Shown here: positions 6,288 to 40,193 of the stretch, piece after piece
Layout: each line of letters starts with the position of its first letter
Numbering within the stretch: the stretch's first letter is position 1
Virus record (IMG/VR): IMGVR_UViG_3300022745_000011
Location: 1-40,193 of that record
DNA from: a virus
Strand: one strand, 5' to 3'
DNA length: 40,193 nt
Notes under the pieces: model-generated
Databases searched by the model: none
What the model saw: only the letters and a program-made list of their open reading frames with translations
What the model was told of the DNA's origin: nothing
Translations under genes and position numbers: made by a program

Positions 6288-7556
6288 TCAAAGTAAGAAA
6301 GACGGAAGTTCAGGAGTCACAGGTGCTTCAATCGCTTGGAACATCGGTGCGGCTGACAGTGTAACAGCGGGGCGTGGATCTGATCTAGGTGCGATAGTTA
6401 ATTTTCCTTCTGAAATTTTGGTGTACTCGGATTTCAATGTCTTGAGTTGGCGATCAGTGAGTTGAACTTTGGTGCCATCACGCTTCTGCCATACAGCTTT
6501 CTCAGCCTTGGCAACAGAAATGAGTTTCGTTTCCCAAATCGCATCCTTGGGCATACCAAACTTCTTCAGCTTCTCAGCCATCTCTTGCTCATCATCAATA
6601 GCCCATGCACGGCTACCACGGCCACGTACAGCCTTGATGCCATCGATGACAGCACCAGCTTGCAGTCGGCGTAGAGCTTCAGCTTCAGCAGCCTCAATCA
6701 TCTGACGCACGAGTGGTGCTGCTTCAATGATCTCGCGCAACTGCTGGTCAGTCATGCTCGTAGGCTCTTTGTCAGCAGCTTGTTTGGCTACATCCAAGTT
6801 ACTGAACGTGATACCAGAGTCGCCTAGTGCCTTTTGACTCAGTGCAGAGCAAGCACCCTTATGAGCACAGTATTTGCACTGTGACTCACCCGGCACGAGT
6901 GGCGCATTAGGGTCATCAGTCGCAGCAGCTTCCGCGATCATCTTGTTCTTGATCTCCATGAGATGACCAAGGGTGATCGTATGGGTGCTGATACCACTCA
7001 TGCCCTTCATACGCAGCTTAGGCTGGATGATGGTCATGCGGATATACAGAGGTTGGAGTCCATGCATCTCAGCAATCACACCAAGAGCGTACTGCTCCAT
7101 CTGATGATTACCAGCAGCATCCACTGGGTTCATGCCATCCTTGTAGTCGATGATCTCCAGTGTGTTATCACTGATGATCTGAACGTCCACAGTACCAGAC
7201 ATATCGGGACGCTTGACTAGAGCTTCAGGATTCACTCGCTTCTCAGCAATGACCTTGGTATCCTGACCCAGTTCAGCTACACGCTTTTCAATATAGTCAA
7301 GAGCGAACTGCACACGTTCAGCACGATCTTCATCCACCATGAACTCACCATCATGGTCTTTGAGAATCATGCCCACGTAGGTCTTGGCATCGTGATACTC
7401 GTTGATGCACTTCTCAAGTAGCGTATGACTATGTGTACCATCGATAGCAGCAGGGCCACCCGGACGCTCAGGGTACTTCGATTCCTCACGCACACTGCCA
7501 GGGCATACAGCCCAGCGGTGACGCGCAGATGGGGACAGTTTGGAATGGGTGCTCAT
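6288..7556 (-). CDS. DUF2800 family PD-(D/E)XK nuclease with probable Fe-S cluster
   Basis: The product is 422 residues. The N-terminus LSPSARHRWAVCPGSV is typical of DUF2800. The nuclease core is SGTVDVQII (Asp124), LEIIDYKDG (Asp137, Lys139) and QMEQYALG (Gln152, Tyr156), a RecB/Cas4-like arrangement. Cys18 together with Cys227, Cys230 and Cys236 (QCKYCAHKGAC) fits a 4Fe-4S cluster as in AddB/Cas4-type nucleases. It probably acts as an exonuclease in replication-linked recombination. It starts four bases inside the MazG-like gene (ATGA) and is followed by the ssDNA-binding gene. The C-terminal third is helical and basic. Confidence 0.9.
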   Translation of the reverse strand: MSTHSKLSPSARHRWAVCPGSVREESKYPERPGGPAAIDGTHSHTLLEKCINEYHDAKTYVGMILKDHDGEFMVDEDRAERVQFALDYIEKRVAELGQDTKVIAEKRVNPEALVKRPDMSGTVDVQIISDNTLEIIDYKDGMNPVDAAGNHQMEQYALGVIAEMHGLQPLYIRMTIIQPKLRMKGMSGISTHTITLGHLMEIKNKMIAEAAATDDPNAPLVPGESQCKYCAHKGACSALSQKALGDSGITFSNLDVAKQAADKEPTSMTDQQLREIIEAAPLVRQMIEAAEAEALRRLQAGAVIDGIKAVRGRGSRAWAIDDEQEMAEKLKKFGMPKDAIWETKLISVAKAEKAVWQKRDGTKVQLTDRQLKTLKSEYTKISEGKLTIAPRSDPRPAVTLSAAPMFQAIEAPVTPELPSFLL

Positions 7557-7864
7557 ACATCATCCTTTACAAACGTGCCATTAGGTAGCAGCGTACCCTT
7601 GCGGTCTTTGATCTCGTCATATGCTGCATACAGGCATGAGGTCATGTTCAGGTCATGCAGAGCACAGTAGATGATGAGGCATACCAGTACATCACCCACA
7701 GCATCGATGCGACCTGCTACATCACCCTTGATCTCAGCATCAGCCAGTTCACCAAGCTCTGACACAGCCTTGAGCAGTTGGGTGTAAGGCTTCGCATTGG
7801 GGATGATTTGGCGGGCTTCAGCCCACTGAATCACCTTCATTTCAACTTCAGCATAGCTGCTCAT
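7553..7864 (-). CDS. MazG-like nucleotide pyrophosphohydrolase
   Basis: The product is 103 residues with the all-alpha NTP pyrophosphohydrolase signature. SELGELADAEIKGD carries an ExxE pair (Glu36, Glu39), and RIDAVGDVLVCLIIYC carries Asp54 and Asp58 for Mg2+ binding. Family members hydrolyse (d)NTPs to monophosphates; phage versions may adjust nucleotide pools or alarmone levels. Both ends overlap neighbours by four bases (ATGA), linking it to the Ala/Pro-rich gene and the DUF2800 nuclease. Confidence 0.88.
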   Translation of the reverse strand: MSSYAEVEMKVIQWAEARQIIPNAKPYTQLLKAVSELGELADAEIKGDVAGRIDAVGDVLVCLIIYCALHDLNMTSCLYAAYDEIKDRKGTLLPNGTFVKDDV

Positions 7865-8313
7865 TTGATTGCCTCAATTCCAGCCTTCAGAGCACCCCAC
7901 TGAGCAGGCACCACATCGTTGATGTTCTTGTAACCGAGGGACTCCAGCACACCTTGGATCTGAGCACCCTTCTCAGGGCCAAGCTTACGGTAGCTGTTGA
8001 TGACGAACTCAGTCATGACCTCTTTGGATGGAAACGCAGCAGGAGCTTCAGCAGCAGTTACTACCGGAGCAGCTACTACCGGAGCTACATCAGTGAACAC
8101 AGGTGCAGGCGGCATCACCGACTGTACAGCCACAGGACTGACAGTGACCACAGGAGCAGCGACAAGAGTGGGAGCACTAGGCGCAGCAGGAGCACTCGGA
8201 GTGTTGACTTGAGCAGTTGGTGTGGATTGAACATTTTGTGTCGTAGTCAGATAAGTGGCAATGATCTTTAGGGATTCAGCAATAGAGGTCAGGTTGGATT
8301 CAATCGAGGGCAT
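7861..8313 (-). CDS. Hypothetical protein with Ala/Pro-rich linker and helical C-terminal module
   Basis: The product is 150 residues. Residues 1-30 form a helix (IESNLTSIAESLKIIATYL). Residues 31-95 are an Ala/Pro/Val/Thr-rich linker (APVVTVSPVAVQSVMPPAP). Residues 97-150 form a compact helical module (EVMTEFVINSYRKLGPEKGAQIQGVLESLGYKNINDVVPAQWGALKAGIEAIK). I recall similar short C-terminal modules on other phage replication or recombination proteins, which points to protein interaction; this is inference. It overlaps the end of the RHH gene and begins after AAGGAAA. Confidence 0.8.
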   Translation of the reverse strand: MPSIESNLTSIAESLKIIATYLTTTQNVQSTPTAQVNTPSAPAAPSAPTLVAAPVVTVSPVAVQSVMPPAPVFTDVAPVVAAPVVTAAEAPAAFPSKEVMTEFVINSYRKLGPEKGAQIQGVLESLGYKNINDVVPAQWGALKAGIEAIK

Positions 8314-8494
8314 ACAAAGTTTCCTTTACAGTCTTGGGTTTACTAACGGTCAAACGGTTTTCTACAAAAGCAGCGACTAACTCCCTTAGCACTTCTGAAG
8401 GCCCACCGTAACGGGTGGACTTCTTCTTGAAGTTGCCATACAGTTCGGCGCTGACCCGAACTGATAGGGTTGGTGAGACAACTCGTTTTGTCAT
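8300..8494 (-). CDS. Ribbon-helix-helix (CopG/Arc-type) DNA-binding protein
   Basis: The product is 64 residues: a beta strand SPTLSVRVSAELYGNFKKKS followed by helices RYGGPSEVLRELVAAFVENRL, the CopG/Arc pattern in which a strand dimer enters the major groove. It is the first gene of the leftward early operon. It lies directly downstream of a promoter embedded in a 14-base inverted repeat, so autoregulation and control of the divergent rightward operon are likely. AAGGAAATAG precedes the ATG. Confidence 0.8.
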   Translation of the reverse strand: MTKRVVSPTLSVRVSAELYGNFKKKSTRYGGPSEVLRELVAAFVENRLTVSKPKTVKETLYALD

Positions 8495-8508
8495 CTATTT
8501 CCTTTCAA

Positions 8509-8536
8509 GTTGTTTGCAACTGTGTCAAAGTATAAT
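8509..8536 (+). promoter_or_regulatory. Rightward promoter for the PAPS-reductase-like/prim-pol operon
   Basis: A perfect -10 TATAAT (8531-8536) is present, but the -35 is poor (GTTGTT at 8509-8514 with a 16-base spacer). It overlaps the leftward -10 on the other strand. Start would be near 8543, giving a leader of about 34 bases with no Shine-Dalgarno site. A weak -35 within an operator suggests dependence on, or strong competition with, the RHH protein or the leftward promoter. Confidence 0.55.
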
Positions 8537-8556
8537 ACACTGCAAACCGTTGTCAA
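8529..8556 (-). promoter_or_regulatory. Leftward early sigma70-type promoter
   Basis: On the minus strand a perfect -35 TTGACA (8556-8551) is followed by a 16-base spacer and -10 TATACT (8534-8529). Transcription would begin near 8522 and read the RHH gene and the long early operon. The -35 lies inside one operator arm. Confidence 0.8.
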
Positions 8557-8576
8557 CAACTTTTCAAAAAATTTCT

Positions 8577-9326
8577 ATGGAAAAGAAACGCAGACTAATC
8601 TCATGGTTCTCATGTGGCGCTGCTAGTGCTTACGCTACCTATCTGGCAGTCAATGATGATCGTGGAGAGGCTGTTTATTGCAGGGTACGACAGGAACATG
8701 AGGACAATTTACGATTCATGGATGACTTCTCCAGAGTCACAGGAATACCTGTGAAGATCATCACCAATGAACAGTTTGATGGAGACATCATTAGTGTCTT
8801 CTTGAAGCGTGGGTTCATCAAAAATCAGTATGGTGCTCCTTGCACAATGGTCTTGAAGAAGGACATGCGTAAGGCATACCAGCTACCCACCGATGTTCAA
8901 ATTTTCGGATACACATCTGAAGAACAGGATCGGGTAGATCGATTCATCGATTCCAACAATGATGTTGATGCTTATTTTCCACTGATGGATCTTGGCATCA
9001 CAAAGGGTGACTGTTACTCATTTGTCCGTAAGCTGGGTATTGAACTGCCTGTCATGTACCGCCTTGGATACAACAACAACAACAACTGCATTGGTTGTGT
9101 CAAGGGTGGAATGGGTTACTGGAACAAGATCAGAGTTGATTTTCCTAAGCAGTTCAAACGCATGGCGCAACTTGAACGCCAGATCAATCACGCTATCAAT
9201 AAAGAAGGATCAGGAAAGACCATGAAACCTGTATTCCTTGATGAGCTAGACCCTACCCGTGGTCGTATGTCACTGTTTGAAGATATGCCTGCCGATTGTG
9301 GCTTTATCTGTGAGACTACCAAATGA
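8577..9326 (+). CDS. PAPS-reductase-like / adenine-nucleotide alpha-hydrolase fold protein
   Basis: The product is 249 residues from the ATG at 8577; an upstream in-frame start would run through the operator and into the RHH gene. Residues 12-17 (SCGAAS) are the PP-loop-like ATP-binding motif of the PAPS reductase/ATP pyrophosphatase superfamily. Other features are YGAPCTMVLKKDMR (Cys89), FGYTSEEQDRVDRF, and NNNNNCIGCVKGGMGYWNK with CxxC at 171-174 after five Asn. C241 and C245 lie near the end. Such phage proteins are annotated as PAPS reductase-like but probably catalyse an ATP-dependent sulfur or modification reaction on another substrate. It overlaps the prim-pol gene by ATGA, so a link to DNA metabolism is suggested. 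It has no visible ribosome site. Confidence 0.87.
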   Translation: MEKKRRLISWFSCGAASAYATYLAVNDDRGEAVYCRVRQEHEDNLRFMDDFSRVTGIPVKIITNEQFDGDIISVFLKRGFIKNQYGAPCTMVLKKDMRKAYQLPTDVQIFGYTSEEQDRVDRFIDSNNDVDAYFPLMDLGITKGDCYSFVRKLGIELPVMYRLGYNNNNNCIGCVKGGMGYWNKIRVDFPKQFKRMAQLERQINHAINKEGSGKTMKPVFLDELDPTRGRMSLFEDMPADCGFICETTK

Positions 9327-11869: not shown

Positions 11870-11877
11870 ACAAAAAG

Positions 11878-11900
11878 AAGCCCCAATGAAGGGGCTTTTT
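11878..11900. terminator. Bidirectional rho-independent terminator
   Basis: The stem AAGCCCC/GGGGCTT (11878-11884, 11891-11897) has a six-base loop and runs into T's on the right and is preceded by A's on the left (11872-11876). It can end both the rightward prim-pol operon, eight bases after its stop, and the leftward small-gene cluster. Confidence 0.9.
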
Positions 11901-11947
11901 AACTAGCGGGATCAACTCTAGGTAGGGAGACAAGAGCAACTAACGGG

Positions 11948-12097
11948 TCAGAGTTTAACACCTAATCGACGCAGTGCCACACCATGCAGCAAAATGTGAA
12001 TCTTGCTCATATGCTCAGTTGGATAGCTCATCGATAGAGCTATTTCCGCAGGTGTCATTAGTTCCAACAGTTTAGCCAAGTAAGCTTGTTTAGTCAC
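11948..12097 (-). CDS. Small hypothetical protein (49 residues, GTG start)
   Basis: The ORF begins at the GTG at 12097, which has GGAG eight bases upstream and overlaps the stop of the preceding 22-residue ORF (GTGA). The product MTKQAYLAKLLELMTPAEIA continues LSMSYPTEHMSKIHILLHGVALRRLGVKL. It looks helical and amphipathic, a small soluble protein of unknown role. It is the last gene of the leftward cluster before the shared terminator. Confidence 0.65.
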   Translation of the reverse strand: MTKQAYLAKLLELMTPAEIALSMSYPTEHMSKIHILLHGVALRRLGVKL

Positions 12098-12162
12098 AAT
12101 CCATTCTCCAATACAATCAAAAATAGCATCAAAAAGAAAAATACAAATCCGATCCAGTGCAT
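12094..12162 (-). CDS. Tiny hydrophobic peptide (22 residues)
   Basis: The candidate peptide MHWIGFVFFFLMLFLIVLEN-GL is one membrane span. GAGG lies 8 bases upstream and its stop overlaps the next gene's GTG. Evidence is limited to position, initiation signal and hydrophobicity, so it is tentative. Confidence 0.4.
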   Translation of the reverse strand: MHWIGFVFFFLMLFLIVLENGL

Positions 12163-12163
12163 A

Positions 12164-12322
12164 TCATGCCTCAGGGTGGTTAGTTGTCCAGCACTCCCGG
12201 CCAATGGATAGCAGGTCGTGGGCTTGTTTTTCAGTCAATCCGTGATCTTCTGCATACTTTGCATAGGTCAAATAGTTGTTTAGGAATTCAATGTATGCAT
12301 CGATTAGCTGTTGTCTGGTCAT
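12164..12322 (-). CDS. Small hypothetical protein (52 residues)
   Basis: The product MTRQQLIDAYIEFLNNYLTY continues AKYAEDHGLTEKQAHDLLSIGRECWTTNHPEA. The segment EFLNNYLTYAKYAEDHGLTEKQA looks like a helix-turn-helix-sized helical unit seen in many small phage proteins ('YAEHNGLTEEQA'-like). A DNA-binding role is conceivable but not shown. AAGGGA precedes the ATG at 12322. Confidence 0.7.
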   Translation of the reverse strand: MTRQQLIDAYIEFLNNYLTYAKYAEDHGLTEKQAHDLLSIGRECWTTNHPEA

Positions 12323-12334
12323 GATTAATTCCCT

Positions 12335-12541
12335 TCAAAGTGGTTTGTATGAACGTGCGAACCGGCGTGCACCGCTATAACTGTGCCATGTGCGAACATC
12401 TCCGCCAGTAGTGTGAATGTGACCGTATGCTGTACCAATGACGATATAACGATAGTCAGTACCAGATACGCGGAACCGTGCCACTGTAGGTTCGCTTTGT
12501 TGATGTGTGCGTATGTCTAACCCATTCTCGAACGTAATCAT
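12335..12541 (-). CDS. Hypothetical protein (68 residues)
   Basis: The product MITFENGLDIRTHQQSEPTV continues ARFRVSGTDYRYIVIGTAYGHIHTTGGDVRTWHSYSGARRFARSYKPL. The pattern suggests a small beta-rich fold with a basic C-terminus. An AGGGG ribosome site precedes the ATG, which overlaps the stop of the 28-residue membrane peptide upstream. The family is not recognised. Confidence 0.72.
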   Translation of the reverse strand: MITFENGLDIRTHQQSEPTVARFRVSGTDYRYIVIGTAYGHIHTTGGDVRTWHSYSGARRFARSYKPL

Positions 12542-12624
12542 TTAATCAACCCCTTAAAAATCTCCACAATAAACGGCGTTGCCAGTATCAAGCCCACTAG
12601 CAGGGCTTCGAATAGGTCACGCAT
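12538..12624 (-). CDS. Tiny membrane protein (28 residues)
   Basis: The candidate MRDLFEALLVGLILATPFIV-EIFKGLIK has one hydrophobic segment (residues 8-20) and charged ends. Its ATG is two bases after the upstream gene's stop, and its own stop overlaps the next ATG. AAAGG lies 11 bases upstream. It fits the dense gene tiling but is short. Confidence 0.5.
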   Translation of the reverse strand: MRDLFEALLVGLILATPFIVEIFKGLIK

Positions 12625-12626
12625 GG

Positions 12627-12911
12627 TTAGATAGCCTTTCCATTAAGGTAAGTTACTCCGGCTTTAGTTGTCACATTGACGCCTAGAGCGCGGAGCCGGG
12701 ACTTAGTGGTGAGTGTAGGCCAGTGCTTCAGTGTGTACTCATTGACGCGCACTACGTCGTTTTCCACGCTGGCGATATGGTTACCGTGTAGGAAAATGTT
12801 AGGGATAAGAAACCCCCTAGCATCGACGTGCATGGATACTGAAGTGTTGGAGCCATGCCAAGTAGTCTTAGCTTTAACGGCATCAATCATCTGTTTTTCA
12901 ATTTTACGCAT
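12627..12911 (-). CDS. Hypothetical phage protein (94 residues)
   Basis: The product reads MRKIEKQMIDAVKAKTTWHG, then NTSVSMHVDARGFLIPNIFLHGNHIASVENDVVRVNEYTLKHWPTLTTKSRLRALGVNV. It matches a common type of small phage protein in which a 'NTxV...vyLHGnxIa...W.T.TT..RL' core follows a helical start. I know no function for that type. GAGGAATAATC precedes the ATG. Confidence 0.82.
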   Translation of the reverse strand: MRKIEKQMIDAVKAKTTWHGSNTSVSMHVDARGFLIPNIFLHGNHIASVENDVVRVNEYTLKHWPTLTTKSRLRALGVNVTTKAGVTYLNGKAI

Positions 12912-12913
12912 GA

Positions 12914-13129
12914 TTATTCCTCGCTTTCTTCATCTTCGAAGTGCTCTAAGAGTTCATCCCAGTTAATGTCGGTGTCTACAAAGTCTTTCAAGAAGTCCGG
13001 TAGATCATCAATAGCGCTTTCGAGTGTTTCCCGCGCCATCTCCACATCGGAGCGCGATTCAGGGTTAAACCATACATTGACTAACCATGTAGCGCGGTTA
13101 GTCCATCCGTTGTAAGTGTTGTCGGTCAT
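12914..13129 (-). CDS. Small acidic phage protein ('NGWTNRATW' type)
   Basis: The product is 71 residues from the ATG at 13129 (GGAG seven bases upstream). It contains NGWTNRATWLVNVWFNPE, a signature repeated in small proteins of many phages, followed by a strongly acidic helical C-terminus (DDLPDFLKDFVDTDINWDELLEHFEDEESEE). The acidic tail could imply DNA mimicry or protein binding, which is speculative. The stop is two bases before the next ATG. Confidence 0.8.
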   Translation of the reverse strand: MTDNTYNGWTNRATWLVNVWFNPESRSDVEMARETLESAIDDLPDFLKDFVDTDINWDELLEHFEDEESEE

Positions 13130-13159
13130 AGTAGTTCTCCAAAGGGTCAAGGGAAGGGT

Positions 13160-13258
13160 TTAAAGGCCCATAGCAGCGCGGATGCGTAGCCATTGGTTGT
13201 AGGTGAGGGGACGAGCGTTTAACGCTTCGCAGTGGGCGATGTGGTGTAGGTAGTGCAT
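13160..13258 (-). CDS. Very small hypothetical protein (32 residues)
   Basis: The ORF MHYLHHIAHCEALNARPLTY continues NQWLRIRAAMGL. The start at 13258 follows GGAAGA. The 'CExLNARPLTYNQWLRI' build looks like a structured mini-protein rather than random translation. It sits between two well-supported small genes in the same direction. Function unknown. Confidence 0.55.
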   Translation of the reverse strand: MHYLHHIAHCEALNARPLTYNQWLRIRAAMGL

Positions 13259-13286
13259 GGTGGTGTCTTCCAGTTGAATAGCGCAA

Positions 13287-13493
13287 TCAAACCAATGGTT
13301 TGAACAGATCGCGTAATTGCTGCACAGTGTCTTCCAGGTGGCGCAAACTAGTTTTGTCGCAACGATGTAGGAACCATGCAAGGCGCGAAGCCTCTTCGAC
13401 CTGCTGGTCGGTGTACTTTGCAATCGTTGCACGTGCGTCAGCGAATCTCTTATCCATGCTATTGAACACAGCAGTCATGTTGATCGTTTGCAT
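13287..13493 (-). CDS. Hypothetical helical protein, first gene of the leftward small-gene cluster
   Basis: The product is 68 residues (MQTINMTAVFNSMDKRFADA, then RATIAKYTDQQVEEASRLAWFLHRCDKTSLRHLEDTVQQLRDLFKPLV), all-helical by inspection. CGGAG is 8 bases before the ATG. Its promoter must lie in the repeat-rich region to the right, but I could not identify a convincing -35/-10 pair there. No family is recognised. Confidence 0.72.
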   Translation of the reverse strand: MQTINMTAVFNSMDKRFADARATIAKYTDQQVEEASRLAWFLHRCDKTSLRHLEDTVQQLRDLFKPLV

Positions 13494-13565
13494 TCCAGTT
13501 CTCCGGTAGGTTTGTCGTTGCCCGAAGGCGAGCTGAGCTTATCACAAATTCTTTGAAACACAATA

Positions 13566-13605
13566 TTTAGGATGCAGAAAGATCAAAGATTCTTTGTTTA
13601 GGATG
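13566..13605. repeat. TTTAGGATG direct repeat with CAAAGATTCTTTG palindrome
   Basis: TTTAGGATG occurs at 13566-13574 and 13597-13605, 31 bases apart (about three helical turns). Between them is the perfect odd palindrome CAAAGATTCTTTG (13584-13596). The arrangement resembles a protein-binding array at an origin or promoter. Confidence 0.6.
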
Positions 13606-13673
13606 TTCTTTGGTGCTTTCCAGTGCATTGCAAAGGATTCTTGATACAAAATGTCAATTAAACTTTTCATTGT

Positions 13674-13918
13674 AAAAAGTGCTGCAACTGCACTAGGGAA
13701 TTGGGAGAGTGGGTTGGAAATGTGCAAATTTAGAAAATGGTTTTAAAAACATACAACGTGGAAAGCACAGGTGCTGCACTTTTTACCCGGAATGTTTGAG
13801 GATTCAAAGAGACCAGGAGAAAAGTGCAGCACTTGCACAGAATAATCTTTGACTTCTCAAACATTCTCAAAGTGCTGTTTAAAGATTGTTTGACACGTTT
13901 TTGACCCATTGCTGCACC
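13674..13918. repeat. GTGCTGCA / AATGTTTGAG repeat cluster
   Basis: GTGCTG-type boxes occur at 13679-13685, 13771-13783, 13820-13832 (inverted), 13872-13877 and 13909-13918. The pair 13771-13783/13820-13832 forms 13 perfect base pairs. AATGTTTGAG lies at 13791-13800, its exact complement at 13856-13865, and a third copy just outside at 13936-13945. The two families are interleaved, like iterons. Confidence 0.7.
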
Positions 13919-14011
13919 GCAACATCCACTTTGAAAATGTTTGAGTTCTCACTGTTTCTCTGATTACTCACGCTTTCATTGAGCACCATTGTCGCAACTA
14001 GAACAGACCCA

Positions 14012-14052
14012 GGTGTCATGTGTCTGATATATCCATCCAGACATAAGACACC
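14012..14052. repeat. Strong inverted repeat (15-base arms)
   Basis: The arms GGTGTCATGTGTCTG (14012-14026) and CAGACATAAGACACC (14038-14052) match at 13 of 15 positions around an 11-base AT-rich loop. There is no U-tract on either strand, so an operator or RNA structural element is more likely than a terminator. Confidence 0.65.
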
Positions 14053-14215
14053 GGATTGTTAGATTCAGGATTCCGAAATTACTTAACATAATGGACACTG
14101 TATTAAGTATGGAGCTTGAACTATGTCAGACGGTGCCAGGGGTCCACCAGCCCTACTACTTACTGACCAGTCAGTCACTAGCACTTGCACTTGACTTGAT
14201 TGACCGTGATTCAAA

Positions 14216-14336
14216 GGGGCGGGGGGAGGGTGCTCGCGGATTAATAATTATTTTTACTACACATCCCCGCTCAGGAAACCCAAATTTATGATTCAAAAGA
14301 ATCTTTGAAACCCTCCCCTTGACCCTTCCCTCCCCC
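14216..14336. other. G-rich tract paired with two C-rich tracts upstream of terminase
   Basis: GGGGCGGGGGGAGGG (14216-14230) can pair with CCCTCCCC at 14311-14318 or CCCTCCCCC at 14328-14336. The G tract could also form a quadruplex. The intervening DNA includes an AT-rich palindrome (AATAATTATT). GC-rich clusters next to small terminase genes are common at cos or pac sites, so this is a candidate packaging site, by inference. Confidence 0.4.
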
Positions 14337-14345
14337 AATAGATTC

Positions 14346-14939
14346 ATGTATCCTCCACACATGGAAACTCCAACCCCTGTACCAAGCTGGTTAGAACCCA
14401 GCCCCACAGTGGAGCAATCTCCGACACCGCTGGTTAAGTACCCACGGACAACGCAAGAGATGACGCTCCGTGAACTGACCTATGAGAACTTCTTTGAAGC
14501 CTCATTGGATAGACTTGCCCTTGGTCATCCACTCAAGGACATAGTGGACGATGATCCACGTGGTATTGATGCTGCTGACTTCTTGAAGTGGATCAGGAAA
14601 GACAAGGAGCGTTATAGCCGCTTCAAAGAGTCTCAGGAGGTCGCTGCTGAGTTCTTGGTCTATAGCGCAATCAAGGCAGCAAACGGCACAGACTCCATGA
14701 ACGATGTGAACCGTGACAAGCTGATCGTGGACACCTCACTGAAGGTGGCGGCAGCTTGGTCGCCTAAACGCTATGGTAAAGAAGTGGGGATCGTTGGTAA
14801 CTCGGGGAACCAGCCGATCACGATCAACATTGGTCAAGTGGAGAGTCCTTATGCCGTGGTGGATGTGGTTGGCGATAGTGGTGTTCTTACTGGCCCCGAT
14901 ATGGGACGAGTGAGTATCAGTGATGTGGAGATCAAATGA
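14346..14939 (+). CDS. Terminase small subunit
   Basis: About 197 residues if begun at the ATG at 14346; ATGs at 14361 and 14460 and a TTG at 14319 are alternatives, and none has a good ribosome site. After a Pro-rich N-terminus, the recognisable domain runs from MTLRELTYENFFEASLDRLALG to DFLKWIRKDKERYSRFKESQEVAAEFLVYSAIKAANG and LKVAAAWSPKRYGKE, a helix-turn-helix-type small terminase of many phages. It should bind the packaging site and direct the large subunit. Its TGA overlaps the terL ATG, and non-coding repeats lie directly upstream. Confidence 0.85.
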   Translation: MYPPHMETPTPVPSWLEPSPTVEQSPTPLVKYPRTTQEMTLRELTYENFFEASLDRLALGHPLKDIVDDDPRGIDAADFLKWIRKDKERYSRFKESQEVAAEFLVYSAIKAANGTDSMNDVNRDKLIVDTSLKVAAAWSPKRYGKEVGIVGNSGNQPITINIGQVESPYAVVDVVGDSGVLTGPDMGRVSISDVEIK

Positions 14940-16192
14940 GTACGCTCGACTTTCGACTCCTTCGCTGGCAACGTGAGGTGATGACTGACAAGACCCGGTT
15001 CAAAGTGGTCGTAGCTGGTCGTCGGTGTGGTAAGACACGGTTCTCAGCGATCGATATGATCGTCAAGGGACTGGAGTGCGTACATACCGATGCCACCGTT
15101 CTATACGTAGCCCCCACGTACGGCATGGCGAAGACTTTGATGTGGGACTTGCTCAACCAGTTGGCACAGCCGGTGATTGCCAAGGCGAACATCAACGATG
15201 GGGAGATCACACTGGTCAATGGTGTGAAGCTGCGCATACGCGGCTCGGACAACCCCGATGCGCTGCGAGGGTTCAAGCTGTTCCATGTGGTGACAGATGA
15301 AAGTAAAGACTTCAAGTTGAACGTGTGGCCCCTGATCATCCGACCCGCACTGTCTGACTTGAAGGGTACGGCACTGATCATTGGTACGCCTGAGCCGGGT
15401 GAGAGTGAGTTTCGTGACCAGTACGAGTTGGGACTGGGTGGTGATCCTGAGTGGAGATCATGGCACTTCACCACGCTAGACAACGAGCTTATCGATCCGA
15501 AGGAGATCGCTGCTGCTCGTAAGACACTCAGCACTGCTCACTTCCAGCAGGAGTACATGGCCTCGTTTGACACGATGGGTGAGAACATCTTCAAGGAGTC
15601 ATGGCTGCTGTACGGAGAACATGCACCTGCTGATGGTACGACCTTCATAGCCGTTGACCCGGCCGGGTTTGAGTCAGTAGCAGACAGCAGTAAGAAGAAG
15701 CACCTCGACAACACCGCGATAGCTGTGGTCACGGTGAGTGACGATGGTAAGTGGTTCGTGAAGAAGATCGACTACGGACGCTGGGATGTCAGGGAGACAG
15801 CGGTCAGGATACTGATGGCGATCAGAACGCATCGACCCATGATGGTCGGTGTGGAGCGTGGGTCACTTGCCAGAGCACTGATGCCCTACCTGACCGACCT
15901 GATGCGTAAGAACCACGTCTACGCTCACATCGAGCAGATTCAGATCAGTGGGTCCAAGGAGAACCGGATAACGTACAACCTCCAGGGTCTGTTCGAGCAT
16001 GGACGCATAACCCTGAACTCCAGAGAGAAGTGGGACCAGTTCTTGAAGGAGTACATCAGCTTCCCTTCCAAGAAGTCCCACGATGACCTGATAGATTCAC
16101 TATCCTTGGTAGCTAACCTAGTGACAACTACTTATGCCAAGCTGGGTGATGACGAGGATTGGGAGCCTCTGGATACAGTTTCGGGTATATAA
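14936..16192 (+). CDS. Terminase large subunit
   Basis: The product is 418 residues. The ATPase domain has Walker A GRRCGKT at 28-34 and Walker B-type HVVTDES with Asp121-Glu122. The nuclease domain has AVDPAG (Asp241), VGVERGS (Glu307) and SHDDLIDSLS (Asp383, Asp384, Asp387), the RNase H-like metal ligands. It pumps DNA into the prohead and cuts concatemers. It starts by ATGA overlap with the small subunit gene. The last codons overlap a TATAAT-like element preceding the homing endonuclease gene. Confidence 0.97.
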   Translation: MSTLDFRLLRWQREVMTDKTRFKVVVAGRRCGKTRFSAIDMIVKGLECVHTDATVLYVAPTYGMAKTLMWDLLNQLAQPVIAKANINDGEITLVNGVKLRIRGSDNPDALRGFKLFHVVTDESKDFKLNVWPLIIRPALSDLKGTALIIGTPEPGESEFRDQYELGLGGDPEWRSWHFTTLDNELIDPKEIAAARKTLSTAHFQQEYMASFDTMGENIFKESWLLYGEHAPADGTTFIAVDPAGFESVADSSKKKHLDNTAIAVVTVSDDGKWFVKKIDYGRWDVRETAVRILMAIRTHRPMMVGVERGSLARALMPYLTDLMRKNHVYAHIEQIQISGSKENRITYNLQGLFEHGRITLNSREKWDQFLKEYISFPSKKSHDDLIDSLSLVANLVTTTYAKLGDDEDWEPLDTVSGI

Positions 16193-16219
16193 TCGAAGCA
16201 CACACGCGCCAACGTGTGT
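16188..16219 (+). promoter_or_regulatory. Possible promoter -10 and 5' stem-loop before the HNH gene
   Basis: A perfect TATAAT (16188-16193) lies across the terL stop codon, but I see no good -35. A start near 16200 would put the hairpin ACACACG/CGTGTGT (16200-16206, 16213-16219) at the very 5' end of the RNA. The motif GGTATATAAT closely matches GGTATATAGT on the other side of the HNH gene. Confidence 0.4.
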
Positions 16220-16251
16220 ACCTCTAACCTCTTACATATGAAGGATGTAAT

Positions 16252-16752
16252 ATGGCTTCTTCGATTCTAACTCAAGCACGTTTGCAATACTTGTTCACTT
16301 ATGATAGTGCTACAGGTATATTCACGAGAAATGTTGATTGCAACAACACAAAAGCAGGTACTAGCGCCGGATCACCCTCAAATAAAGGGTATATGCGAAT
16401 CATGGTAGACAACCGTCGATATCTATCTCATAGACTCGCGTGGTTGTATGTTCATGGTGAGTTCCCCAAAGACCAGTTGGATCACATCAATGGTGTCAAG
16501 TCCGATAATCGTATTGCCAATCTCAGACTTGCTACGAACAAGGAAAACTTTCAGAATTTCAAAGATCGTAACGGAAAACTTGGGACGTACTATCATAAGT
16601 TGACAGGTAAATGGGGAGCGCAGATAGGGAAAGACTACCAACGCTGGCACCTTGGACTGTTCGATTCTCAAGAAGAAGCTCATAATGCCTATAAAAAGGC
16701 CAAACAACAACTTCATGAGTTTCAACCAACATTGATAGTGCTTTCCTCTTGA
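16252..16752 (+). CDS. HNH homing endonuclease with AP2-type DNA-binding domain
   Basis: The product is 166 residues. The HNH core is LSHRLAWLYVHGEFPKDQLDHINGVKSDNRIANLRLAT, with His60, Asp77-His78 and Asn86/Asn90 in the usual positions. Residues 109-153 (KLGTYYHKLTGKWGAQIGKDYQRWHLGLFDSQEEAHNAYKKAK) form an AP2 domain that would contact DNA. Such free-standing endonucleases invade phage genomes between conserved genes. This one sits between terminase and portal and is flanked by similar TATA-motif/hairpin sequences. AAGGATG precedes the ATG at 16252. The gene appears intact and probably spreads by cutting genomes that lack it. Confidence 0.95.
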   Translation: MASSILTQARLQYLFTYDSATGIFTRNVDCNNTKAGTSAGSPSNKGYMRIMVDNRRYLSHRLAWLYVHGEFPKDQLDHINGVKSDNRIANLRLATNKENFQNFKDRNGKLGTYYHKLTGKWGAQIGKDYQRWHLGLFDSQEEAHNAYKKAKQQLHEFQPTLIVLSS

Positions 16753-16766
16753 CGAGATTGCTGGTA

Positions 16767-16801
16767 TATAGTACATAGACTACAATTCACATGAATTGTA
16801 G
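16767..16801 (+). promoter_or_regulatory. Possible promoter and 22-bp perfect palindrome before the portal gene
   Basis: GGTATATAGT (16763-16772) resembles a -10 region; TTGACG at 16749-16754 is a possible -35 but only fits TACATA at 16772-16777 with a 17-base spacer. Bases 16780-16801 are a perfect palindrome (arms CTACAATTCA/TGAATTGTAG) that would form a hairpin at or near the 5' end of the portal mRNA. Confidence 0.45.
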
Positions 16802-16809
16802 GACTAACT

Positions 16810-18852
16810 ATGCCCATTACCGAAGGCTACTCTAATAGTGGTGAGATCGTTGATCTAACCCTAGACCCGACACCGAAGGAATATTTTGAGCCTTCTGAGC
16901 TTGAGAAAGAGCTTATTGGGTTCATTGTGTCACACACAGATCGGTGGCGCGACTATCGGGACCAAAATTACTCTGACCAATGGGCCACCTACGAACGGAC
17001 CTGGCGCGGCATCTGGTCCAACGAGGACTCCAACCGTGCATCTGAGCGTTCCAGAGTCATTTCGCCAGCTACGCAGCAGGCGATTGAGACTCGACACGCT
17101 GAGATCATGGAGGCGATCTTTGGTCAAGGTGAATTCTTTGATATTGACGATGATCTTGGTGATAAATCCGGCAGATTGGACATTGAGCAGTTAAAAAATA
17201 AGCTCAAAGAGGACTTTGCACAGGATAAAGTTCGTAAAAGCATCGACCAAATTGCACTACTGGCTGAGATTTACGGCACTGGCATCGGGGAAGTCGTTGT
17301 TTCAAGTGAGAAACAGTACAAACCGATGAGTGTGCCTATGGGTGGTGGTCAGATTGCCTACGGAACGGGTGAAAAAGACCGGATTTCTGTCAAGATTAAC
17401 CCGATTAACCCGAAGAACTTCCTATTCGACCCCAATGGCACCGATGTAAATGACTGCATGGGTGTGGCAATCGAGAAATATGTCTCTATCCACAAGATTG
17501 CAGCCGGTATCGCTGATGGGAAGTACAAAAATGTCGATATTTCCTCGCTTTATGAGGATGAATCGCTAGAACCTACCCAAGAATCCCGCAATTATGAGGA
17601 TGACAAGGTACTTTTGCTCACTTACTACGGTTTGGTGCCTCGTGAGTACCTGACCGCCGGTGAGGAAGTGGTAGACCTGTTCAACGAGGGTGAGATCGAA
17701 GACTACCGTGACATGGTTGAGGCCATTGTGGTCATTGCCAATGGTTCGCTGCTTTTAAAGGCTGAAGAATCGCCCTACATGATGCAGGATCGCCCGATCC
17801 TGAGCTACCAAGCTGATACGGTGCCGGGTCGCCTGTTGGGGCGCGGAACTGCTGAAAAAGCGTTTAATATGCAATCGGCAGTCGATGGTTCGATGCGCTC
17901 CCACATGGACGCACTGGCCCTGACCGTAGCCCCAATGGTGGGGCTGGATGCGTCACGGTTGCCCCGTGGTGCGAAGTTTGAGGTCAAGCCGGGTAAGGCA
18001 TTCCTGACCAACGGTGCACCATCCGAGATCATTTTTCCGTTCAAGTTCGGCACCAACGATGGTCAGGCGATGCAGACCTCCAAAGAGTTCGAGCGTATGC
18101 TGCTCATGGCAACTTCTACGGTTGACTCTGCGGGTGCACCGTCCCAGGTGTCCCGTGACGCTGGTGGTATTGACATGGCGACTGCCACCATGATCAAGAA
18201 GTACAAGCGGGTATTGGTGAACTTCCAAGAGGACTTCCTGATCCCGTTCATCTACAAGGCTGCATGGCGTTTCATGCAGTTTGACCCGCAACGCTACCCC
18301 GCAGTCGATGTGAAGTTCATCCCCACAGCCACTTTGGGTATCGTGGCGCGTGAGTATGAGCAGAAGCAGTTGGCATTCCTGATCCAGACTCTGGGCGCTA
18401 ACTCGCCTCTGACTCCGATCCTGATGCAGTCGGTCATCAAGAATAGCTCTCTGAGTAACCGTGAGGAAATGTTGGTCCAGTTGCAGAAGGCTGCACAACC
18501 CGACCCACAAGCTCAACAGGTCCAGCAGCAGGCTGTGATGCTTGATGATGCTCTGAAGCAGGCTCAGGTTCAGAAGACCCAAGCGGAAGCTGCCAAAGTG
18601 CAGGCTGAAGCTCAGGTTACACCTCAGTTGGCCCAGGCTAAATTGGTAGCGGCTTTGAGTAATAATCTCACCAATGGTCAAGAGGAATCCGATTTTCAAA
18701 AACGTGCTCAGATTGCTGATCTGATGCTCAAGGAGAAGGATTTACACTTGAAAGCTGAAGATATTGCTTCCAATGAACGTATTGCAATGGCGCAGATGCA
18801 TGACAAGAAGCAATCTGAAGCGGATTACCTGAAAACCGCATCAAACGCATAA
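16810..18852 (+). CDS. Portal protein
   Basis: The product is 680 residues, in the range of podovirus portals. The N-terminal part ELIGFIVSHTDRWRDYRDQNYSDQWATYERTWRGIW and SRVISPATQQAIETRHAEIMEAIFG is typical, as are GTGIGEVVVSSEKQ, PINPKNFLFDPNGTDVNDCMGVAIEKYVSI, RPILSYQADTVPGRLLGRGTAEKAFNMQSAVDG (wing/stem) and a Gln/Ala-rich coiled C-terminus (about 560-615). It forms the dodecameric DNA entry ring and head-tail junction. AGGA lies six bases before the ATG. It is placed after terminase, with only the HNH insertion between. Confidence 0.93.
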   Translation: MPITEGYSNSGEIVDLTLDPTPKEYFEPSELEKELIGFIVSHTDRWRDYRDQNYSDQWATYERTWRGIWSNEDSNRASERSRVISPATQQAIETRHAEIMEAIFGQGEFFDIDDDLGDKSGRLDIEQLKNKLKEDFAQDKVRKSIDQIALLAEIYGTGIGEVVVSSEKQYKPMSVPMGGGQIAYGTGEKDRISVKINPINPKNFLFDPNGTDVNDCMGVAIEKYVSIHKIAAGIADGKYKNVDISSLYEDESLEPTQESRNYEDDKVLLLTYYGLVPREYLTAGEEVVDLFNEGEIEDYRDMVEAIVVIANGSLLLKAEESPYMMQDRPILSYQADTVPGRLLGRGTAEKAFNMQSAVDGSMRSHMDALALTVAPMVGLDASRLPRGAKFEVKPGKAFLTNGAPSEIIFPFKFGTNDGQAMQTSKEFERMLLMATSTVDSAGAPSQVSRDAGGIDMATATMIKKYKRVLVNFQEDFLIPFIYKAAWRFMQFDPQRYPAVDVKFIPTATLGIVAREYEQKQLAFLIQTLGANSPLTPILMQSVIKNSSLSNREEMLVQLQKAAQPDPQAQQVQQQAVMLDDALKQAQVQKTQAEAAKVQAEAQVTPQLAQAKLVAALSNNLTNGQEESDFQKRAQIADLMLKEKDLHLKAEDIASNERIAMAQMHDKKQSEADYLKTASNA

Positions 18853-26997: not shown

Positions 26998-28707
26998 ATG
27001 GAACAAAACCCATTTGAACCAATTATCTATACAGATCCTTCTGTCCCTGTAGGGGAAGCTCCTGCTGCTGGCTGGACATGGGCACCGCATACGGTTGGAA
27101 GTCAAAATAATGAAGTTTGGGGTTGGCAAGCCCCATATGATCCAAATGGCAGTAGCGGCGGTTGGCTAGGTGGTCTATTTAGCCCTATTACCCAAGGTAT
27201 TCAGTCTACTCAGCAAAACTTAGGTTCCAGCATTTCTGATGCTTTGAGTGATCCCAACTTTGCCAAGTTCGCGTTGGGAGCGACTGCGATGTATGGCGGT
27301 GCGGGTGGGTTTGATGGTTTATTTTCAGGTTCTGCTACCCCTGCTACATCAATGACCGGTGATGCATATTTACCGGGCGCTCTGGGTAGCGGTCAAACAG
27401 GAATGCTTGGCACTATGACTCCTGCACAAATTGAAGCTATGACCAACGCAGCCGGTTACGGTACTACTGCACTAGGTGGTGGAGCTAATGCTTACCCTTG
27501 GTCTAGTCTATTCAGTAATCTGGGTTCCGGTATTTCCGGCTTGGCTGATTCTGTTGGAACAGGACTTTCGGGATTCGGTAGTTCTTTGTCTTCTGGTCTT
27601 GGTAACTTCGGAAACGGTTTATTTTCAGGACTTGGTAACTTCGGGTCATCTTTAGGATCTGGCTTGGCATCCGGTTTTGGTAACTTAGGATCATCTTTAG
27701 GATCTGGCTTGGCATCCGGTATGGGTTCTATTGGTTCCGCTTTGAATGGTATGAATCAAAGTCAAATGTGGTCTGCTGGTTTGAATGCTCTCGCCGGTCA
27801 AGCTCAAGCAGATGCTGCGCGACAAGCAGCCCAAACCCAAGCTGACGCACAGATTCGTGCTGCTCAGATCGCCGCAGATGCTGCCAAATTCAAACCTGTA
27901 GGTGTCACCACCGGATTTGGGTCATCTCAGTTTGGATATGATGCTAACGGGAATTTGACTTCTGCCGGTTACAACCTGAGTCCTGAGATGAAGGCGCAAC
28001 GTGATGCGTTGATCGCTCAGTCCGGTGGACTGTTGAATCAGTTCCAGCAATCTCAAGCTGCTACTGCACCCATGAGTGATGCTGCTCAACGTGCTATGAC
28101 CTTGGGCAATCAGTATCTGGCAACAGATCCACAAGCTCAGGCTCAGAAGTATTACCAAGATCAGATGAAGCTCTTGGAGCCGGGTCGGGCTGATGATCTA
28201 GCCCAACTACAAGCTCAAATGCAGGCTCAAGGTCGTGGCGGGTTTGCTATCGGTGGTGGAGTAGGTGGTATGGGTGCTGCTAATCCACAACTGCAAGCTC
28301 TCTATAACGCACAACTCCAACAGAACAATCAACTTGCCGTTAATGCTACGCAAGGTGGTATGGACTACGCTAAGTTCGGCGCAGGACTCGTAGGTACTGG
28401 TGGTGATCTATTGTCCGGTATGTATAACACTCAGGTCAATGCATTCAACCCGTATAAGACTGCTTTGGGTGGTGCTCAGACTGTTGAAGGTCTTGGACAG
28501 AATGCTCTGACACAAGGTATTAGTTTAGGTGGTACGACTAGTTCGGCTAATGCTAACGCTGGTAATCTACTGGCTAGCGGTATGACAAGTGCTGCGAATA
28601 CAATGGCCCCTGCCAATGCTTATTCACCGTGGGCTAATCTACTGGGTCAAGGTGCCACTGCATTGAGTAGTTACAAGTACGACCCAATGACAGGAAAGGC
28701 ACTGTAA
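26998..28707 (+). CDS. Probable internal/ejection virion protein, Gly/Ala-rich
   Basis: The product is 569 residues. Residues 55-270 are very rich in Gly, Ser, Leu and Phe with amphipathic repeats (SGLGNFGSSLGSGLASGFGN), which could form membrane-active helices. Residues 265-300 are Ala/Gln helix (AQADAARQAAQTQADAQIRAAQIAADAA), followed by Gln-rich helical segments. Low-complexity proteins of this type, followed by two other large helical proteins, are characteristic of podovirus ejection proteins that form a DNA channel. CAGGAATAAG is the ribosome site. The stop overlaps the next ATG (TAATG). Confidence 0.75.
   Translation: MEQNPFEPIIYTDPSVPVGEAPAAGWTWAPHTVGSQNNEVWGWQAPYDPNGSSGGWLGGLFSPITQGIQSTQQNLGSSISDALSDPNFAKFALGATAMYGGAGGFDGLFSGSATPATSMTGDAYLPGALGSGQTGMLGTMTPAQIEAMTNAAGYGTTALGGGANAYPWSSLFSNLGSGISGLADSVGTGLSGFGSSLSSGLGNFGNGLFSGLGNFGSSLGSGLASGFGNLGSSLGSGLASGMGSIGSALNGMNQSQMWSAGLNALAGQAQADAARQAAQTQADAQIRAAQIAADAAKFKPVGVTTGFGSSQFGYDANGNLTSAGYNLSPEMKAQRDALIAQSGGLLNQFQQSQAATAPMSDAAQRAMTLGNQYLATDPQAQAQKYYQDQMKLLEPGRADDLAQLQAQMQAQGRGGFAIGGGVGGMGAANPQLQALYNAQLQQNNQLAVNATQGGMDYAKFGAGLVGTGGDLLSGMYNTQVNAFNPYKTALGGAQTVEGLGQNALTQGISLGGTTSSANANAGNLLASGMTSAANTMAPANAYSPWANLLGQGATALSSYKYDPMTGKAL
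27646..27720 (+). repeat. 45-bp period tandem repeat inside the Gly-rich protein gene
   Basis: A 30-base unit is identical at 27646-27675 and 27691-27720, within a 45-base period encoding GSSLGSGLASGFGNL and GSSLGSGLASGMGSI. Exact DNA identity contrasts with the rest of the gene and suggests recent duplication or slippage. Confidence 0.85.
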
Positions 28708-39543: not shown

Positions 39544-40193
39544 GTTTGGCCTCCAGCGCTGCACGGGCAGCGTTTTGTTGCTCAATGATTGTGTCGATGT
39601 AGTCACGCAGATCGTGCAGGCGTTTCTGCTCGTCGTAGCCACATTGGTTTGCGTGTGGCTCTTTGCGGAGCATGAAGCGGTCATAGTCGTTGCAGTTGAA
39701 CTTCACGCTGCTTCGGCACTCGATCAGCTTCTCCCGCAGCCGATCGTTCTCAGCGCGGAGTTCTTTGGCTTGCGCCATGAAGAAGTTCTGGTTCTCGCAA
39801 TGCTGCCTGTCCATCTCTATGGCGTAGGCTTTCATTTCGTCCAGTTGCTGCTGGAGTGCTGCGAGTGCGGAGGCGGGTACAAGTTCGTGCATTCGTTTCC
39901 ACAGTCGCCGCATTCTCGGCGGCAAAATATGGAACTCATCTTGTGCCGCATATTCCATTTCTTTGGATAGTTCCGGCTCCACATCCACCTTCAGGTGCGG
40001 GCAGTTTGGATACGGGTCTGCAAAACAGTTTGTGCCTGCTTTCCAGTTTGCGCAGCACGGCTCAACATCCACCTTGGTCAGCCTCTCCAGCTCAGGGAAG
40101 GGCCAGTCTTTCAAGTGCTCGATGGCGGCTTTTACAGCCTTGTCCACCACGCTTCCATCTTGGTACTTGTAGTCACCACGTTCACGCGCACCA
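39536..40193 (-). CDS. Hypothetical early protein, C-terminal part (continues from the other end of the window)
   Basis: This is the remainder of the gene that starts at base 252 and reads through base 1. The full protein is 283 residues. Visible features are a Cys-containing segment (CCANWKAGTNCFADPYPNCPHLK), a helical region (MRRLWKRMHELVPASALAALQQQLDEMKAYAIEMDRQHCENQNFFMAQAKELRAENDRLREKL, coiled coil), and FNCNDYDRFMLRKEPHANQCGYDEQKRLHDLRDYI. The Cys/His residues may form a metal site. Function unknown. Any annotation treating the window as linear would cut this gene in two. Confidence 0.82.
   Translation of the reverse strand, partial: GARERGDYKYQDGSVVDKAVKAAIEHLKDWPFPELERLTKVDVEPCCANWKAGTNCFADPYPNCPHLKVDVEPELSKEMEYAAQDEFHILPPRMRRLWKRMHELVPASALAALQQQLDEMKAYAIEMDRQHCENQNFFMAQAKELRAENDRLREKLIECRSSVKFNCNDYDRFMLRKEPHANQCGYDEQKRLHDLRDYIDTIIEQQNAARAALEAKHD
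40136..40193. repeat. Terminal direct repeat, right copy
   Basis: Exact copy of bases 1-58, marking closure of the molecule. Confidence 0.95.

Follow-up and report, generated by a model that had tools for sequence, protein, structure and literature searches.

A candidate Xer-type recombination site beside the terminase genes of a tailed phage and its recurrence in other phages

Plasmids carry Xer sites, at which XerC/XerD, the chromosome-separating recombinases of bacteria, act, and so do filamentous and other small phages. For tailed phages, the general view is that they supply recombination functions themselves or circularise by homologous recombination; the DNA of phage P1 is circularised by Cre-lox recombination, and P1 encodes Cre. 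At the plasmid sites cer and psi, the accessory proteins are PepA together with ArcA or ArgR, according to the sections of PMC5357621 consulted, and gokushoviruses integrate at dif (PMC7062461, in part). Sections of PMC8026635, PMC5964084 and PMC7399989 were drawn on as further literature. In a literature search that covered open-access full text, with subscription papers and preprints outside its scope, no tailed phage with a site for host XerCD was found. The locus described here, from a tailed phage, has the 11-6-11 anatomy of these sites, conserved arms that match those of dif, a centre that differs from that of dif and a position next to the terminase genes, and no tyrosine or serine recombinase gene was found in the phage.

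The non-coding gap and its repeats

We analysed the record IMGVR_UViG_3300022745_000011, which is a tailed phage; the window denotes this whole stretch of 40,193 bp. It is classed with the linear records and has a 58-bp direct terminal repeat (1-58 = 40136-40193). The ends of the record overlap by these 58 bp, so that the map is probably circular and complete. The plus strand encodes, at ~14.35-37.5 kb, the small and large terminase subunits, portal, major head protein, amidase and endolysin; a Prim-Pol/DUF3987 protein is also encoded on the plus strand. DNA polymerase, exonuclease, an Enc34-like ssDNA-binding protein and an SNF2-type helicase are encoded on the minus strand. We also noted a phosphoadenosine phosphosulfate reductase-like gene at 8415-9326 (phrog_424), possibly having a role in DNA modification. 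The gene content is partly similar in phage DSL-LC05, and a search for DNA similarity of positions 12000-17000 to 50,697 phage records gave no match. The features of the locus are listed in Table 1.

Table 1. Features in and around the gap upstream of the terminase genes
Feature	Position	Strand	Basis or remark
Small ORF, left edge of gap	13287..13493	-	no family match
Non-coding gap between minus-strand small ORFs and terminase operon	13494..14345	.	largest gap; inverted-repeat excess
Iteron-/operator-like box cluster: TCAAAGATT, CAAACATT (GAATGTTTGA), GTGCTGCAC, both orientations	13541..13945	.	words enriched also in L003, L005
Candidate Xer-type core site 11-6-11, ACTTAATACAG-TGTCCA-TTATGTTAAGT	14081..14108	-	L003/L025 conservation, dif-arm matrix, viral recurrence
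XerD-type half TTATGTTAAGT	14081..14091	-	identical to published Rhodoferax ferrireducens dif half
Centre TGTCCA (host dif centre TGTATA)	14092..14097	-	centres vary among phages
XerC-type half ACTTAATACAG	14098..14108	-	matches phage consensus and dif arms of bacterial clade
G-rich/C-rich inverted pair I5 beside terS	14214..14327 (14214-14231 and 14310-14327)	.	GCGGGGGGAGGGT block common to L003
Terminase small subunit, Sf6 type	14346..14939 (start 14346 or 14361)	+	PF20901, phrog_1482
Terminase large subunit (TerL type A)	14936..16192	+	phrog_2

An initial annotation of this DNA had described the region as its largest non-coding one, repeat-dense and placed where gene orientation diverges. 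When computed with a plausible gene set, the gap at 13494-14345 (852 bp) was indeed the largest, the second being of 465 bp at 11870-12334, and the minus-strand ORFs end at 13493, with terS starting on the plus strand at either of the two positions given in Table 1. The repeat density was confirmed for inverted repeats. We observed five inverted segments with scores of at least 11 in the gap, compared to a mean of 0.13 and a maximum of 2 in 100 dinucleotide shuffles, and none of the 91 other 836-bp segments of the genome reached this number. Word counts were weaker: single 8-mers were not above the shuffles (10, shuffle maximum 13) and 10-mers were borderline (7, shuffle mean 3.2 and maximum 8). 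The GTGCTGCA and AATGTTTGAG boxes form the inverted pairs I1-I4, and direct copies of TTTAGGATG are located at 13566 and 13597. The motif said to recur three times, GATTCAAAG, is exact at 13801 and 14208, whereas the copy at 14290 reads GATTCAAAA and is inexact. The Rfam scan gave no match, the tRNA scan detected none, and the promoter and terminator scans gave counts at the shuffle level.

The CAAACATT and TCAAAGATT words occur 7 and 8 times, respectively, in the window, 9 and 4 times in L003, and 7 and 4 times in L005, against shuffle means of ~1.5-2.5 and 0.1-0.5. Conservation of the boxes among relatives had been suggested as a check, and it held for these two close relatives, where the enrichment is at the same place, but not for most of the other relatives tested. 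The boxes resemble binding sites for a single regulator or initiator belonging to this subclade. Since L005 carries the boxes without the Xer site, the two are separable.

Anatomy of the 28-bp element and its recurrence among phages

The element at 14081-14108, which the initial annotation did not include, participates among the inverted repeats only in a weak pair (I12). It is built of two 11-bp halves and a 6-bp centre, the core architecture of XerCD sites. In L003, whose TerL is 89% identical, 27 of its 28 bases are the same while most of the gap has diverged; in L025 (TerL 53%), 26 of the 28 are the same. A matrix made from 21 published beta/gamma dif arms gave it 15.6 bits, the best score in the genome, compared to 7.7-11.7 bits in five shuffled genomes. 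We estimate the probability that this element is an Xer-type (dif/psi/pdif-type) site, as judged from its sequence, to be about 0.88. As an imperfect palindrome that lies in a control region ahead of late genes, it could also be an operator or promoter for a conserved phage or host regulator, its likeness to the dif arms being convergent. We regard this as very improbable: its two unequal halves correspond to those of dif for XerC and XerD, in the correct order and with the correct spacer, the direction relative to TerL varies between lineages, and a sigma-70 scan gave nothing at the 28-mer.

At ~197 other viral loci, which have terminases of four types, we found these arms again around 6-bp centres that vary; the element there lies in the gap next to the terminase genes. 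The pattern with the TGTCCA centre had at least 105 matches in the viral collection, many of them with unrelated flanks; the set of 107 sequences compared includes the window, and two of its members, L025 and L146, seem to be a single contig. The arms with a free centre gave at least 120 viral matches, a few of which, with unusual flanks, may have arisen by chance. Twenty-two different centres were present in 92 newly taken free-centre loci, CGACCA (25) and TGACCA (21) being the commonest. As a spacer control, setting the spacer to 7 or 8 bp left 23 matches in the whole collection. In a set that mixes the TGTCCA and free-centre scans, the rates of change of centre and flanks were similar, and faster change of the centre, which would have favoured the proposed reading, was not found.

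TerL was found in 168 out of 196 site loci (the window, L003 and L025 excluded), distributed as type B (103), A (50), D (11) and C (4); the remaining 28 had no TerL within the sequence piece examined. Orientation of the site relative to TerL differs by type (that of the window's type versus that in 18 of 20 type-B sites). The presence of the 28-mer in four terminase types argues against its recognition by one terminase. This bears on the proposal that the gap holds a packaging site, pac or cos, for which its position directly upstream of terS and the G-rich/C-rich pair, partly common to L003, might speak. We consider it improbable; the contig closes elsewhere, by the 58-bp overlap.

As the arms were fixed by the search pattern in these earlier sets, loci were picked by TerL alone for a test. 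Eighty loci were chosen by type-B TerL, of which 54 with at least 2.6 kb upstream were kept and 26 dropped. Twenty of the 54 match at least 18 of 22 arm positions at a spacer of 6, and with spacers of 4, 5, 7 or 8 none of the 54 was above 17 of 22. Both spacer controls show the 6-bp length to be specific. Positions 15-28 are 90-100% constant in the 20 sites, and the XerC-side half of the centre is the most variable. The other 34 loci are without the site, some of them retaining only the TTATGTTAAGT half. Upstream of TerL in L374, L384, L387, L389 and L391, we noticed an intact TTATGTTAAGT half next to a different, non-canonical left half.

For type-A TerL relatives, the site was present in three of 22 terS-upstream regions (the window, L003 and L025) and absent from 19; L004 and L005 are without it, though as close as L003. 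The expectation that dif-like sites would occur in isolates with related terminases did not hold: none of five (MEP301, BcepC6B, ctNMl277, Ab9 and DSL-LC05) had one scoring above the shuffles. A match to Cronobacter phage CSP1 was rejected because the arms are missing in its sequence. In ctNMl277 (L296), several TGTTTAYRTAA..TTATGTAAACA palindromes lie just upstream of the terminase genes, at 28264-28450. Curvibacter phage P26059B is T7-like by annotation.

Of 199 site loci, 118 have a TTATNCACA DnaA box in the 60 bp that follow the XerD half, at +9 in 86 and at +50 in 86, and seven have one before the XerC half; the background is 0.004 per 60 bp. The loci with DnaA boxes, such as L064 and L274, are mostly of type B (87 of 103, counted on the forward strand only). 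Shared descent of the flanks explains part of these fixed offsets.

The DnaA boxes that many type-B phages have at fixed offsets from the site (+9 and +50), and the enrichment of the box words at the same place in the window, L003 and L005, are consistent with the whole gap being a replication origin, in which the boxes would be iterons for a phage initiator and the Xer site an added module. The window, however, has no exact TTATNCACA box, the gap boxes are irregular and unenriched in most relatives, and the cumulative GC-skew, which had been proposed as a check for the origin, has its minimum near 7.5-8.5 kb, outside the gap. Since the skew follows the gene strand, this last evidence is weak. 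The minimum (7500-8500) falls at the other divergent junction, near 8313-8415. An origin in the gap is possible, though less likely than not, and this reading does not exclude the Xer reading. From the earlier proposal of an origin or packaging region, a functional cis-acting region is well supported, and what the relatives single out within it is an Xer-type recombination site rather than an origin or a packaging site.

Host dif sites and integration

Among the entries considered from the published dif table (PMC2731167), Rhodoferax ferrireducens alone has arms of this type. In one bacterial clade, dif has XerC and XerD halves that both match those of the phage site. By way of a TctC-rich genome, we reached one order, apparently the Burkholderiales, where the arms were found in two of 300 genomes; within the genera of those two, six of 7 and 10 of 53 genomes had them. 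All 16 host-type sites were single copies with the centre TGTATA, and in two of them the XerC arms, ATTTTATACAA and ACTTCATACAA, are practically the phage arm. The TGTATA centre was present in none of the 158 phage sites examined. The match of the arms suggests that this clade provides the host of the phage. The arms with a free centre were absent from all 398 genomes of the phylum of L169.

These data bear on the main rival to recombination in cis, namely that the site is an attP through which XerCD would passively integrate the phage at host dif, the tailed phages being temperate without an integrase. In agreement with this, tyrosine (PF00589) and serine (PF00239) recombinases were each found in none of 25 site-bearing records, and the phage of the window has neither. 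Furthermore, in gokushoviruses, too, it is in the spacer that the phage dif motifs depart from that of the host (PMC7062461), and TGTCCA has TGT and the last A in common with host TGTATA, so that integration is possible for the TGTCCA phages. However, TGT was present on the XerC side in only one of the 92 newly taken free-centre loci, the TGTCCA loci being outside this count, and the host-type dif sites are all single copies. A scan of 84,980 genomes for TGTCCA gave 32 matches: 30 ordinary dif-like sites, one in a Rickettsiales MAG, and one phage arm, L183, on a 9.9-kb contig of an Acidimicrobium MAG. Integrated TGTCCA copies at dif were found neither in this collection nor in the 16 host-type genomes; integrated copies with other centres were searched in the sets of 300, 7 and 53 genomes only. 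The partition ATPase PF13614 was absent in all 25 site-bearing records, thus plasmid-type lysogeny is not supported. We regard integration at dif as unlikely.

Eight viral contigs (L286-L293), most of them of 6-8 kb, carry a host-like TGTATA dif, in several cases near the contig end, and may represent inovirus-like elements at dif. No TerL of the four types was found on any of the eight, which also speaks against integration of the tailed phages. Many of the 30 dif-like sites with the centre TGTCCA, out of the 32 in L162-L193, are in MAGs of Bacilli or Erysipelotrichaceae.

Proposed reaction and known Xer systems

Arms equal to those of dif, together with a differing centre, would allow recombination between copies of the site but not with the chromosome, and this favours circularisation or monomerisation by XerCD. 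We consider it fairly probable that the element is a psi/cer-like site at which host XerCD would recombine the phage genome in cis and so turn it into circles or monomers. The ACTTAATACAG half would be the binding site of XerC and the TTATGTTAAGT half that of XerD, and recombination between two copies of the phage site in terminally redundant, dimeric or concatemeric DNA would yield circular monomers. A centre unlike that of host dif would mean that the phage is not readily recombined into the chromosome. Neighbouring sequences, which are DnaA boxes in one lineage and other repeats here, may act as accessory or timing elements. We infer this reaction, its purpose, the host, the binding of XerCD and any accessory role from comparisons of sequence.

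The recurrence of the site suggests that, in many unrelated tailed phages, circularisation or separation of the genomes is left to the host enzyme. A more specific proposal, which we hold tentatively and at somewhat less than even odds, is that several unrelated tailed-phage lineages each placed a psi-like XerCD site by their terminase genes, with the arms fitted to host dif and the centre kept off it, so that the chromosome-dimer machinery of the host would circularise or monomerise the genomes without integration; host DnaA, at +9/+50, would be a new accessory or timing factor in one lineage. If true, a host-dependent site across terminase lineages would constitute a short sequence mark of host range, the arms following dif, and phage growth would depend on XerCD, which is directly testable. 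The fixed DnaA boxes pose the question of whether Xer recombination is tied to DnaA.

The site of pSC101, psi, has a 6-bp centre within an 11-6-11 XerC/XerD core, as does the phage site, while the centre of cer of ColE1 has 8. Both psi and cer resemble the phage site in having a centre unlike chromosomal dif and no recombinase of their own; they reside on plasmids, whereas the phage site is on a tailed phage. We take the core GGTGCGCGCAAGATCCATTATGTTAAAC to be psi. This core, as printed in the section of PMC8340030 consulted, shares CCA-TTATGTTAA and the same arm/centre design with the phage site. Unlike psi and cer, with their PepA and ArcA/ArgR, the site in one phage lineage has DnaA boxes as its neighbours. 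A BLAST search of the phage consensus against plasmids gave 118 records, 101 of them from Acinetobacter, and the two Acinetobacter plasmid sites examined are pdif-like, with the centre TATCCA and the shared CCA-TTATGTTAA. The pdif sites of Acinetobacter plasmids have the same architecture, but flank movable modules in pairs, in contrast to the one copy per sequence piece examined in the phage records. The attP of IMEX (CTX, gokushoviruses) is likewise a phage site for host XerCD without an integrase and with a variable spacer; IMEX, however, integrate at dif and are small or filamentous phages, whereas our searches gave no integrated copy of the present site, most centres of which are unlike that of the host. 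The proposed recombination of redundant ends or dimers resembles that of loxP by Cre in P1, with the difference that the enzyme would here be supplied by the host.
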